NCBI RefSeq assembly: GCF_903944925.1
Contig: NZ_CAJATU010000125.1
Span: 1-64,000 of the forward strand
Direction of reading: 5' to 3'
DNA: 64,000 nucleotides
Source of the DNA: an uncultured Rhodopila sp.
GTDB lineage: Bacteria > Pseudomonadota > Alphaproteobacteria > Acetobacterales > Acetobacteraceae
Positions within the stretch are counted from its first letter, which is position 1; each line of letters starts with the position of its first letter. A model generated the notes under the pieces. That model worked only from the letters and a program-made list of their open reading frames with translations, was not told the DNA's origin and made no database searches. The translations under genes were made by a program, and so were the position numbers. Shown in pieces: positions 5,069-16,989 of the stretch.

Positions 5069-5097
5069 TTGCAGCGGGAAGTTTTTTCCCATATTCA
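5069..5097 (+). promoter_or_regulatory. Candidate carA promoter
   Basis: TTGCAG at 5069-5074, a 17-base spacer, then TATTCA at 5092-5097. The spacer contains the palindrome GGGAAGTTTTTTCCC (5076-5090), so a repressor bound there would block polymerase. A start about 7 bases after the -10 would fall at the ATG at 5105, implying a leaderless or nearly leaderless message for the long form of CarA. Prediction from spacing and consensus only. Confidence 0.4.
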
Positions 5098-5104
5098 GGT
5101 CACC

Positions 5105-6517
5105 ATGCCGATCCCGATCGATCATATCATAGAACGCCTGGGTGGTGCGGAGGCTGCCGCGCGCCTGACCGGCGTTGGCACCGAGGCGGTGCGCAAGTGG
5201 CGCCAGAACGGCGCGATCCCGTCCCGCCATTGGCCCGCGGTCATCGCGGCCACCGGCCTGAGCATGGCCGATTTGCAAACTCCAACCGAGCAGGCGAGTG
5301 CACCCATGTCCGATGCGACCGAGTCCGTGCCCGCCGGGGCGACGGCATGTCTTGTGCTGGCCGACGGCGCTGTCTTCTGGGGCCGCGGCATCGGCGCTGT
5401 CTCCGGCGGGACCGCGCCGATTGGCGAGGTGTGTTTCAGCACGAGCATGACCGGGTACCAGGAAACGCTGACCGACCCGTCCTTCGCCGGCCAGATCATC
5501 ACGTTCACCTTCCCGCATGTCGGCAATGTCGGCACCAATATCGAGGACATCGAGAACCCGGCGATCGCGGCGCGGGGGCTGGTGATCAAGCAGGACGTCA
5601 CCGAGGCGTCCAACTGGCGATCAACGCAGGGTCTGGATGCGTGGCTGCGGTCGCAGGGTGTCACCGGCATCGCCGGGGTGGACACGCGGGCTTTGACGGT
5701 CCGCATCCGCGACGGCGGCGCGCCTACAGGCGTGCTGGCGTTTCCGGCGGATGGGAGATTCGATCTGGCGGCGCTGCGCGCTCAGGCGGCGGCCTGGCCC
5801 GGGCTGGAGGGAATGGACCTGGCGAAGGACGTTACCTGCCTGCAGTCCTATGGCTGGGATGAAACCACCTGGGCCTGGCCGGCGGGGACCGGGCGGCAGG
5901 TTGCGCCGAAGCACCATGTCGTGGCGGTGGATTACGGGGCGAAGCGGAACATCCTGCGTTGTTTGGCCTCGGCCGGGTGCCGGGTGACGGTCGTGCCGGC
6001 GACCGCGACGACCGAGGATATCCTGCGACACAAGCCGGACGGCGTGTTCCTGTCGAACGGACCGGGCGATCCGGCGGCGACGGGGGTCTATGCGGTCCCG
6101 GCGATCCGCGGCGTGCTGGAGGCCGCGGTGCCGGTGTTCGGGATCTGCCTCGGCCACCAGTTGCTGGCGCTGGCGCTGGGGGCGAAGACCTACAAGATGG
6201 AGCGTGGCCATCGCGGCGCGAACCAGCCGGTGCAGGACCTGGCGACCGGGAAGGTGGAGATCACCAGCCAGAACCACGGGTTTGCGGTCGATGCGGCGTC
6301 ACTGCCGGACGGCGTGAAGGTGACGCACGTCTCGCTGTTCGACGGCTCGAACGAGGGGATCGCATCGACGGATCGGGCAGCGTTTTCGGTGCAGTACCAT
6401 CCGGAGGCGAGTCCGGGGCCGAGCGACAGCCACTATCTGTTTGGACGGTTCGTGGAGATGATCGAAGGACGCAGCCGAAATAACGGAACTTATCCCTCAT
6501 TGTCGAAAACGTCGTAA
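5105..6517 (+). CDS. carA: Carbamoyl-phosphate synthase small subunit with N-terminal HTH extension
   Basis: Glutaminase subunit that feeds ammonia to CarB for carbamoyl phosphate, used in arginine and pyrimidine synthesis. From the ATG at 5105 it is 470 residues. The first ~60 (IIERLGGAEAAARLTG, AVRKWRQNGAIPSRHW) read as a small helix-turn-helix. The CarA body starts near an internal ATG at 5306 (MSDATESV), which would give a usual 403-residue protein. The class-I glutamine amidotransferase nucleophile lies in FGICLGHQ (Cys348) and the His/Glu pair in VQYHPEASPGP. I favour 5105 because the extension is well conserved-looking coding sequence and in frame. I recall a named HTH domain ('carph-isopro') at the front of some alphaproteobacterial CarA proteins, not checked. 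carB follows after 15 bases. Confidence 0.93.
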   Translation: MPIPIDHIIERLGGAEAAARLTGVGTEAVRKWRQNGAIPSRHWPAVIAATGLSMADLQTPTEQASAPMSDATESVPAGATACLVLADGAVFWGRGIGAVSGGTAPIGEVCFSTSMTGYQETLTDPSFAGQIITFTFPHVGNVGTNIEDIENPAIAARGLVIKQDVTEASNWRSTQGLDAWLRSQGVTGIAGVDTRALTVRIRDGGAPTGVLAFPADGRFDLAALRAQAAAWPGLEGMDLAKDVTCLQSYGWDETTWAWPAGTGRQVAPKHHVVAVDYGAKRNILRCLASAGCRVTVVPATATTEDILRHKPDGVFLSNGPGDPAATGVYAVPAIRGVLEAAVPVFGICLGHQLLALALGAKTYKMERGHRGANQPVQDLATGKVEITSQNHGFAVDAASLPDGVKVTHVSLFDGSNEGIASTDRAAFSVQYHPEASPGPSDSHYLFGRFVEMIEGRSRNNGTYPSLSKTS

Positions 6518-6532
6518 GAAGGGATAACTTTC

Positions 6533-9778
<3,246 letters not shown>

Positions 9779-13781: not shown

Positions 13782-14915
13782 ATGAGACACACCGTCCTGG
13801 CATGCTCCGCCGTGCTGTTTGCCGCTGCCGCCGTTCAGGCCGCGGAACCGGTTCGCATCGGTATCACCACCATCCTGAGTGGCCCGACAGCAGATCGGGG
13901 GCAGTCCGAGCAATACGGGGCGCAGCTTGCGCTCGATCGGATCAATCAGGCCGGCGGCGTGCTGGGGCGGCCGGTCGAAGCGTTCTATGCCGACAACGCC
14001 TGCAAGCCGGACGTCGGCGTGCCGGCGACCAAGCGGTTGCTGGAGCAGGAGCATGTGCCGGTCATCATCGGCGCACTGTGCACGCCGGTGACCCACGCGA
14101 TCATGCCGCTGATGCAGGAGGCCAAGGTCCCGCTGGTCATCGCGACCTCCGCCGGGCAGGACTTCGTCGATGCCTCGGGCGCGGGCGGCAACGACTATGC
14201 GTTCAAGACCATCCCGTCCGAGGTCGATATCGCGCGTGGGCTGATCCGCTACCTGGCGATGCCGGGGACGATCAAGTCGGTCGCCGTGGTCGCGGAGACG
14301 GGCCGGTTCCCGGAGGCCAATGCGGTGGCGTTTGCCAAGGCCTCGCAGGATGCGGGAATCAAGGTTACCGCGAACGAGATCCTGGCGCCGGGCACCAGCG
14401 ATTTTGCTTCGCTGCTGGACACACTGAAGGCCGGCGCGCCGGATGCCCTGCTGGTGATGCCGGGTTCGCTGACGCCGGGGTTCTTCCGTGCGTATGAAGC
14501 GTCCGGCTGGGAAGTGCCGATAAGCGGCAGGGTTGATGTCGGCGCCGCTCTGGCCGCGGTGTCCCCTGGGTTCAGGGCGGCAGGCGGGTTGTCCGGCCTG
14601 AGCAGCATCGTGGTGTTCTCGCCGCTGCTGGACCTGCCGGGGGTGAAGGATTTCGTCGAGTCGTACAAGGCGCATTACGGGCTGGCGCCGACGCAGCGGT
14701 CGTTCTTTATGTATGAGGCGACGTATCTTGTGGTTGACGCGATCCGGCGGGCGGGTTCCGATGAGCCGGCCGCGATCGAGCAGGCCCTGAAGACGACGGT
14801 GATGCCGTCACTGTTGGGCGGGACGTATACGCCGGACAAACAAAACCATGCCCACACGCCGTTGTTCATCGTCGGGGTGAAGGACGGGAAACCGGCTGTG
14901 GTGGCAACGGAGTGA
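13782..14915 (+). CDS. ABC transporter substrate-binding protein, branched-chain amino acid type
   Basis: Periplasmic receptor of the LivJ/type-I fold. From ATG 13782 it is 377 residues, with a Sec signal peptide (MRHTVLACSAVLFAAAAVQA) and the typical opening EPVRIGITTILSGPTADRG. Internal patterns ATKRLLEQEHVPVIIGALCTPVTHA and EQALKTT near the end fit the family. No permease or ATPase gene is adjacent, so it is an orphan receptor here. A LivF-like ATPase at the far right of the window is too distant to link. An ATG at 13770 is an alternative start. The ligand is unknown. Confidence 0.85.
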   Translation: MRHTVLACSAVLFAAAAVQAAEPVRIGITTILSGPTADRGQSEQYGAQLALDRINQAGGVLGRPVEAFYADNACKPDVGVPATKRLLEQEHVPVIIGALCTPVTHAIMPLMQEAKVPLVIATSAGQDFVDASGAGGNDYAFKTIPSEVDIARGLIRYLAMPGTIKSVAVVAETGRFPEANAVAFAKASQDAGIKVTANEILAPGTSDFASLLDTLKAGAPDALLVMPGSLTPGFFRAYEASGWEVPISGRVDVGAALAAVSPGFRAAGGLSGLSSIVVFSPLLDLPGVKDFVESYKAHYGLAPTQRSFFMYEATYLVVDAIRRAGSDEPAAIEQALKTTVMPSLLGGTYTPDKQNHAHTPLFIVGVKDGKPAVVATE

Positions 14916-15032
14916 ATCGTTCTGATTTCAACAAGAAGACTCGCTGCTGATGCGAAAAGCCGCTGTTCGTAAGGATGCCGTAACGCAAATCTGATAGCGA
15001 TCGGCACCAGTTTGGTCGGTCAACCGAATCGG

Positions 15033-15374
15033 ATGAAACAGAAATATTTCCGAATTGTGTCCAGACTCGTCCCGATGGGCGCGGTCGGCGCAGCCCTGTT
15101 CCTCGGCTCAGCACTCCCAAACAGCGCTGCGGAGCGGCCGGCCCCGCCGGATATCCCGGTATCTCAACGACTCAAGGCCATTCGCGAAGCCGTTTTTGTC
15201 GTGGCCGGACCGGGCGAGATCTCCAGGCAGGCCAACCGTGACTTTCATCTCGTGTGGGCGAATCGTTGAAACAACTGGGGCCGGACGGTTGGCCGGCCGG
15301 GTTGGGGGCGGCCAGCCCGGAACAACTGGCGCAATGCCTGGCCAAACTGGAACAATTTTTGGCGAAACTGGTGA
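15033..15374 (+). pseudogene. Broken GrrA/OscA-like cyclophane RiPP precursor
   Basis: The open frame from ATG 15033 has a signal-like start and the leader block SQRLKAIREAV typical of GrrA/OscA-type precursors, then stops at TGA 15267-15269 after HLVWANR. Reading on in the same frame gives a Trp/Asn/Arg-rich core with NNW, RNNWRNAW, PNWNNFW and RNW units, ending at TGA 15372-15374. The interrupting TGA occupies the position where the repeat pattern predicts Trp (ANR-W-NNW), so one base change from TGG explains it. The full peptide would be 113 residues. The partner maturase just downstream is also damaged, so I read this as decay rather than recoding. Confidence 0.72.
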
Positions 15375-15408
15375 GAAAGCTGCGAAGCCGATAGCCAAAG
15401 TGACCGCC

Positions 15409-15627
15409 ATGCCCGAGACAGAGTTGCTGGTCATCCAGCCAACCCCGTTCTGGAACATCGACTGCACTTATTGCTACTTATCCGAACGGAAATCGAAATC
15501 GGTCGTCTTGGGACAGACGCTGCTTAACCTGTTTTCACAGGTTTTCGCTTCGGGTTGGCTTGGCGATTGTCTTCCGGTGGTATGGCACGCGGGAAGCCTT
15601 TCGACGGCATCCTCGACCTGGAGCTGA
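15409..15627 (+). pseudogene. N-terminal fragment of a GrrM/OscB-like radical SAM maturase
   Basis: A 72-residue fragment beginning MPETELLVIQPTPF and reading NIDCTYCYLSERK, then ASGWLGDCLPVVWHAG. This matches the first quarter of cyclophane-forming radical SAM/SPASM peptide maturases, which are normally near 400 residues. The CX3CX2C cluster motif has Trp in place of the first Cys (FWNIDCTYC), so a normal [4Fe-4S] site cannot form. After WHAG the frame leaves the family and stops at 15627. It lies 34 bases after the end of the precursor relic, the expected operon order. Confidence 0.7.
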
Positions 15628-15953
15628 TCGCGACCCCGCCGGATCAGTCGCAGGTCGCCGACGGCTTCGTCCTGGTCAGCGCCATCCTGCCGCTCGAGGA
15701 GGGCCATCCGTTCGAGGGCGTGCGAGTCCGCGGATTCGAGAATGCCATCACGATCAAAGGCGTCCCGGGTATGGTGCGGGCGACCACCAGCGTCAATGAC
15801 TGCCAGACCTGCCCGGGGAAGAGATTCGCGCCCGAAGGGAGCGCGGCGCAACCACAACAAGATCTTGTCCGCAAGGAAGATCTCCCGAGGCTACTCCGAA
15901 CGATCAAGCCTCGGATGGCATCCGAGGCGCCGATCAAAATCCCAACCGCCTGA
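15582..15953 (+). CDS. Unrecognised 123-residue ORF overlapping the maturase fragment
   Basis: From ATG 15582 the frame MARGKPFDGILDLELIATPP continues to 15953 with high third-position GC, so it was or is coding. I do not recognise the family. It contains a Cys pair (DCQTCPG), a charged Gln-rich stretch and no signal or membrane segment. It overlaps the radical SAM fragment in another frame and begins exactly where that homology ends, which looks like a deletion junction joining an unrelated gene tail. It could be a dead remnant. The 180 bases after it show no feature. Confidence 0.35.
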   Translation: MARGKPFDGILDLELIATPPDQSQVADGFVLVSAILPLEEGHPFEGVRVRGFENAITIKGVPGMVRATTSVNDCQTCPGKRFAPEGSAAQPQQDLVRKEDLPRLLRTIKPRMASEAPIKIPTA

Positions 15954-16134
15954 CTCTCATGCCGGGCGACGACAACACAATTCTGGAGGCCTTCCGGGAA
16001 TAGCCTTCAGTGTGGTGATCGAGGACGTTCAGCCGTGATCATTAAGGGGTCTTTCATCGGCCTCTTGCAATGGAATCTCGATTGGCAAATGCCGAAACGG
16101 CAGTTAGAAACGGAGTGAACTAAGGGGGACCGCA

Positions 16135-16551
16135 ATGAGACGTCGTGTTTTGACCGTGGGCACCGCGATGGCGTATGGCTTGGCGCTTTCCACTGCCAAT
16201 GCAGCGGTCACGCAGGATAATTTCCCTCCCAAGACCACTGCGGATCTGGTTGCTCTGTGTACTGCACAGCAGCAAGATCCACTGGCAGCGGCGGCACTCA
16301 ACTTCTGTCAGGGCTTTGCCGAGGGAGCCGTTGAGATCGCGCTCAGCTACAGTGCCGCGGGGACGCAATCCCACCGGCCGTTTTGCCTGCCGGCGCCCGC
16401 GCCCACCCTCGACCAGGCGGCGAGCGACTTCGCATCATGGGCCGGCAGCGACCCATCGCGCCTGCAAAAGCCAGCCGTTGTCGGCCTGATGACCTATCTG
16501 ATCGACCGCTACCCTTGCCCCCATGAGACCCCGCATCACTCGCACGGGTGA
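16135..16551 (+). CDS. Rap1a/Tai-family immunity-like exported protein
   Basis: A 138-residue exported protein with a signal peptide (cleavage after about residue 22, ANA). It then has the Rap1a/Tai pattern TTADLVALCTAQQQDPLAAAALNFCQGFAEG, with a second Cys pair (FCLPAP, RYPCP). In characterised relatives this fold neutralises type VI secretion amidase effectors in the periplasm. Here no effector or T6SS gene is visible nearby, so it is an orphan and the immunity role is only a family inference. A GGGGG ribosome-site-like run precedes the ATG. Confidence 0.75.
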   Translation: MRRRVLTVGTAMAYGLALSTANAAVTQDNFPPKTTADLVALCTAQQQDPLAAAALNFCQGFAEGAVEIALSYSAAGTQSHRPFCLPAPAPTLDQAASDFASWAGSDPSRLQKPAVVGLMTYLIDRYPCPHETPHHSHG

Positions 16552-16588
16552 TCGCCTCTCAAGTGCTAACCGATCGAGGGTACCGAAC

Positions 16589-16858
16589 ATGAAAAAGACG
16601 ATGATGACGATCTTGGTCCTAAGCATCTCCCTTCCGGGGTGTGCCGATCTTACACCCGGGCAACAGCGCGCACTGACAGGCACGGCGATTGGCACGGCGG
16701 GCGGCGCAGCGATTGGCGCGATGGCGGGGAACGCCGCGCTCGGTGCCGGTATCGGCGCCGGTGCCGGTTTGGCCGGCGGCCTGCTGACCAATGCCTGGAG
16801 AAACAACCAGGACCGATCATTCCAGCAGGGTTTCCAGGCCGGACAACAGTCGCGCTGA
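16589..16858 (+). CDS. Glycine-zipper outer-membrane lipoprotein
   Basis: An 89-residue lipoprotein. The signal peptide ends in a lipobox-like LPGC (Cys at about residue 18). It is followed by a glycine-zipper hairpin (GTAIGTAGGAAIGAMAG, GAGIGAGAGLAGG, about 31-68) and a polar tail rich in Gln and Asn. GAGGG lies about 9 bases before the ATG. Such proteins are usually envelope-stress or biofilm-related; the function of this one is unknown. Confidence 0.8.
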   Translation: MKKTMMTILVLSISLPGCADLTPGQQRALTGTAIGTAGGAAIGAMAGNAALGAGIGAGAGLAGGLLTNAWRNNQDRSFQQGFQAGQQSR

Positions 16859-16989
16859 CATCGCCTTGTCATAACCTGTTTTGATTCGGCCCCGCGCTTG
16901 TCCCCAGCACGCAATCGTTACTGAGGATTGATGGCATAGTACGCAACATACCCGGCACTCTCGTGAACCTTCGGAGAAAAGGACACACT

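Follow-up and report, generated by a model that had tools for sequence, protein, structure and literature searches.

The locus described here most closely resembles the GrrM/OscB systems (TIGR04261), which belong with the triceptides, or three-residue cyclophane RiPPs. To our knowledge, the biological role of GrrM peptide systems is unsettled, and a search of the literature on GrrM, triceptides and GrrA found no paper dedicated to GrrM. In PMC11002830, OscB is described as linking the C7 of Trp to the C-beta of Asn or Asp at i, i+2, and precursor cores of the kind considered here are rows of W-x-N motifs that present the same i, i+2 Trp-Asn pair. By analogy with these families, the GrrM of an intact relative would join Trp to Asn within the W-x-N motifs of its precursor core, and the product would be exported, as would the protein encoded by a third gene.

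The window analyzed in this study is a 64,000-nucleotide stretch from a Rhodopila draft MAG in 200 contigs, and all parts of the locus reported below lie on its forward strand. We are highly confident that positions 15026-16003 are what is left of a triceptide-type operon that lost its function recently and that comprised a precursor, a radical SAM/SPASM maturase of the GrrM/OscB type and an unnamed partner whose protein looks secreted. The locus probably once made a Trp-crosslinked peptide. It differs from the described GrrM/OscB systems in that the window holds a dead copy, that the precursor has no NCBIfam model and a core rich in Trp, Asn and Arg, and, in the nearest relative, an extra unnamed gene stands behind the maturase.

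That nearest relative is another Rhodopila MAG (CAINOE010000209.1; genome G020, locus L003), in which the locus is whole. Its precursor lies at 5626-5964, its maturase at 6001-7203 and its third gene at 7227-7970, and the maturase scores 403.9 bits against TIGR04261 (cut-off 310), covering profile positions 1-363. By blastn, window positions 15026-15593 correspond to L003 5619-6185 and positions 15590-16871 to L003 7556-8841, each at 84% identity, so that the likeness runs along both sides of a deletion, and gene order is kept into the Rap1a and glycine-zipper genes that lie 3' of the locus in both genomes. The Rap1a-like gene of the window (16135-16551; Pfam PF18602, E 4.8e-15) is conserved beside the dead locus. 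The two loci differ in that the maturase and third gene are whole in L003 and in that the DNA upstream of its precursor is unlike that of the window; compared gene by gene, all three genes are broken in the window copy and all three are whole in L003. A search of the genome collection with the maturase fragment recovered seven loci, each of them with an open maturase frame preceded by a precursor-like one, so the intact relatives that the initial annotation had proposed looking for do exist, L003 having both a homologous intact core and an intact maturase. One of the other loci, L008, has two consecutive W-rich precursor-like frames (5082-5456 and 5601-5966) ahead of a single maturase.

The precursor pseudogene occupies 15033-15374, as judged from its frame, its relatives and its motif count, and combines a leader that, read by eye, appears to begin like a signal peptide with a W-x-N core interrupted by TGA. 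Its layout is as first described: the frame is open over 15033-15266, meets TGA at 15267-15269 and then stays open to a stop at 15372-15374. The proposal that the TGA falls where Trp is expected was borne out by alignment, since the column holds Trp in 8 of 9 relatives and Gly in the remaining one (L009). The core had also been called a strict Asn/Arg/Trp repeat, which it is not, as G, P, T, V, A and F are present as well. In this GC-rich DNA the length of the open frame behind the TGA is uninformative by itself, and 645 of the 1646 TGA-started gaps in the window likewise have at least 34 open codons. The content of that segment is informative: its 34 residues carry four W-x-N motifs, whereas every other one of the 75,992 stop-free stretches of this length, counted over all six frames of the window, contains one at most. 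Read through, the frame shares 86% identity with the intact L003 precursor and holds five W-x-N motifs, one before the TGA and four behind it, so that normal translation keeps a single motif; intact precursors have six to nine (all eight relatives counted). With E values up to 10 allowed, neither of the two parts of the window precursor matched any NCBIfam family, nor did the intact L003 precursor at E up to 1. Since no NCBIfam model matches the precursor, the label "GrrA/OscA" given to it rests on position and core motif.

Homology to L003 ends seven bases ahead of the precursor start (15026-15032), and the region that holds the ribosome-binding site in the relatives is not kept, as seen by blastn and by the anti-Shine-Dalgarno duplex. 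The duplex is calculated at -4.3 kcal/mol in the window versus -6.8 to -11.0 in all nine relatives. A duplex as strong as that of the window is found in 38% of random 20-mers from the window, and one as strong as that of L003 (-7.3) in 9.6%, which makes the loss of the ribosome-binding site the weakest of the lesions. The upstream gene of the window matches a different contig of G020, and the upstream gene of L003 matches a different contig of the window's genome. The stretch next to the break on either side (14914-15025 in the window) had no match in the other genome of this pair. The 5' break marks a rearrangement, immediately ahead of the precursor, that distinguishes the window's genome from G020.

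It could be argued that the short leader peptide up to the TGA, with its one remaining W-x-N, continues to be made and serves another purpose, given that the leader is conserved with L003 (dN/dS 0.28, 0.10-0.78). The dN/dS of an intact pair is of the same size, however, so recent descent is enough to explain the conservation, and with a clear ribosome-binding site also absent, we consider such a use extremely improbable. An inactivated precursor remains our reading of this frame.

The second gene is represented by a GrrM/OscB-type maturase remnant at 15409-15593, which comprises the first 62 of 400 residues as counted on L003. The fragment translated from 15409-15624 matches positions 1-58 of the 363 in TIGR04261 (E 6.4e-14), but its 51.7 bits do not reach the curated cut-off of 310, and the window thus holds a remnant of a GrrM/OscB member rather than a working one. 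Second best in both cases is the AmcB cyclophane maturase model (NF041718), with 44 bits for the fragment and 291.7 bits for the intact L003 maturase, the latter score staying below that model's cut-off of 425. Where the initial annotation saw a 72-residue GrrM/OscB fragment, the first 62 residues are indeed maturase, but the last 10 are third-gene DNA read out of frame as a result of the deletion. Its observation of Trp in place of the first cysteine of CX3CX2C held: codon 15451-15453 encodes Trp, the aligned relatives have Cys in 7 of 7 cases (L003-L009), and the fragment therefore lacks the CX3CX2C cluster motif. Twelve residues differ between this fragment and L003, six of the changes falling on the window side, three on the L003 side and three being unplaced.

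Base-by-base comparison with L003 places the deletion junction at 15590-15593, where CGGG is common to both ends. The 1,374 missing bases (L003 6186-7559) took 338 of the 400 maturase residues together with the first 111 of the 247 third-gene codons, and with them the C-terminal part of the TIGR04261 profile, which L003 covers in full (1-363 of 363). What is left of the third gene is a 3' remnant at 15594-16003, delimited by the L003 alignment and the relatives. The loss of a single base between 15905 and 15906 has shifted its frame, and in its end region Arg replaces a Trp that is invariant in 7 of 7 relatives.

Because the source is a draft assembly of 200 contigs, each lesion taken singly might stem from an error in assembly or base calling, and one may extend this argument to the whole locus by supposing that it is intact in the species and was mis-joined or mis-called in the MAG. 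Against this, several kinds of lesion fall within about 1 kb while the Rap1a and glycine-zipper genes next door keep open, conserved frames, and we regard an artefact of assembly as quite unlikely, if less so than continued use of the leader. In the window species, the precursor has no clear ribosome-binding site and a core cut by TGA, the maturase is missing one cluster cysteine and, through the deletion, most of its length, and the third gene has lost its start to the same deletion and is out of frame in what remains. With precursor, maturase and third gene all damaged, the product should not be made.

Two routes by which the peptide might still be produced were considered. One is complementation in trans by a second maturase. 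The search for another intact grrM, suggested in the initial annotation, was carried out across the draft genome with the TIGR04261 profile and gave two matches, the remnant itself and a protein at L001:1180-2676 (G000:C26) that scores 591.5 bits as HxsB against an HxsB cut-off of 370. As the only other match is thus the HxsB of a His-Xaa-Ser system, a maturase in trans was rejected. With the intact precursor as the query, the genome likewise yielded a single match, the window's own copy with its one TGA.

The other route is reading of the TGA as Trp by recoding or suppression, which had been put forward as a less likely alternative. In its favor, no further stop interrupts the core, which retains its Trp/Asn pattern. 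Nevertheless, RF2 is present in the genome (515.2 bits versus a cut-off of 370), four of the five neighboring genes checked end in TGA, and the bulk of the maturase is missing with no other GrrM found in the genome; we consequently rejected this reading as extremely improbable.

The main interpretation of the initial annotation, that a full GrrM/OscB-type system has recently turned into pseudogenes, is therefore supported. An intact homologue exists in the nearest relative, further lesions (the deletion, the frameshift and the 5' break) have come to light, and no second GrrM was found in the genome. The age of the event can be approached through substitution rates. Pooled, the remnants have a dN/dS of 0.26 (0.17-0.40) versus 0.24 for the same parts in the intact pair L003-L022, and the flanking Rap1a and glycine-zipper genes have 0.12 (0.07-0.18). 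Since the value for the remnants is no higher than that of an intact pair, either inactivation happened recently or the test lacks power; the absence of excess non-synonymous change fits recent death and is no positive sign of decay, and relaxed selection was accordingly discarded as proof of decay. An outgroup allowed changes to be placed in 137 of 239 codons, those of the third gene being excluded for unequal lengths. The window side received 12 non-synonymous and 11 synonymous changes, the L003 side 9 of each.

The third gene extends beyond this locus. Its protein begins, to the eye, in a manner suggestive of a signal peptide, and the seven aligned members share a CxxC and a PNR...W-E end; a single motif search that also required PNR found C-x-x-C-x-G-K in nine further loci. 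The protein had no match in Pfam or NCBIfam at E up to 1, a profile search returned no PDB sequence at E up to 1, and the best hit in PHROGs reached only E 0.45. We call it unnamed with respect to these sequence libraries (Pfam, NCBIfam and PDB). An AlphaFold2 model built from seven sequences was too poor to use (mean pLDDT 51.9, pTM 0.48), so the absence of Foldseek matches to it in PDB at E up to 0.001 says little.

In genome samples at the level of genus, family and class, which overlap a little, the third gene was found beyond the window remnant in 3 of 33, 6 of 299 and 2 of 385 genomes, and GrrM exceeded its cut-off in 4 of 33, 11 of 299 and 4 genomes, respectively, or 19 in all. The 11 genomes with an intact third gene are all among these 19, and the other eight GrrM genomes are without it. 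Both arrangements can occur together, as G160 has one GrrM with a third gene nearby and another without. Additional copies were also seen: G176 has a second one on another contig (L044, G176:C516), and G678 has two in tandem (L057 and L058, G678:C1). On a maturase tree, presence of the third gene is clustered and needs three changes, where the least forced number is two, and not one. The tree holds 21 of 23 maturases, L027 and L031 having been left out by a motif filter that demands the first Cys, and for that reason it is no test of that residue.

We lean slightly towards viewing the third gene as an undescribed family whose members would be exported and probably beta-rich, marked by CxxCxGK and by a tail of the form PNR...W[ED]. 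They would work with only part of the GrrM systems, as dedicated partners of Trp-Asn crosslinked peptides, both in Acetobacteraceae and in one or more further families of Alphaproteobacteria. In the window, the partner would have been lost together with the peptide and the maturase. As part of the same reading, the partner might be a carrier, a processing factor, a receptor or a means of self-protection.

Taken as such, the dead locus is ordinary decay of a known kind, well resolved here because the sister genome allows each lesion to be named. GrrM is patchy in the family, and this locus is one clear case of the loss behind that patchiness. The third gene is the more useful outcome and is worth following, since in the genomes sampled it occurs strictly alongside GrrM and so offers a testable, as yet unnamed part of these peptide systems.
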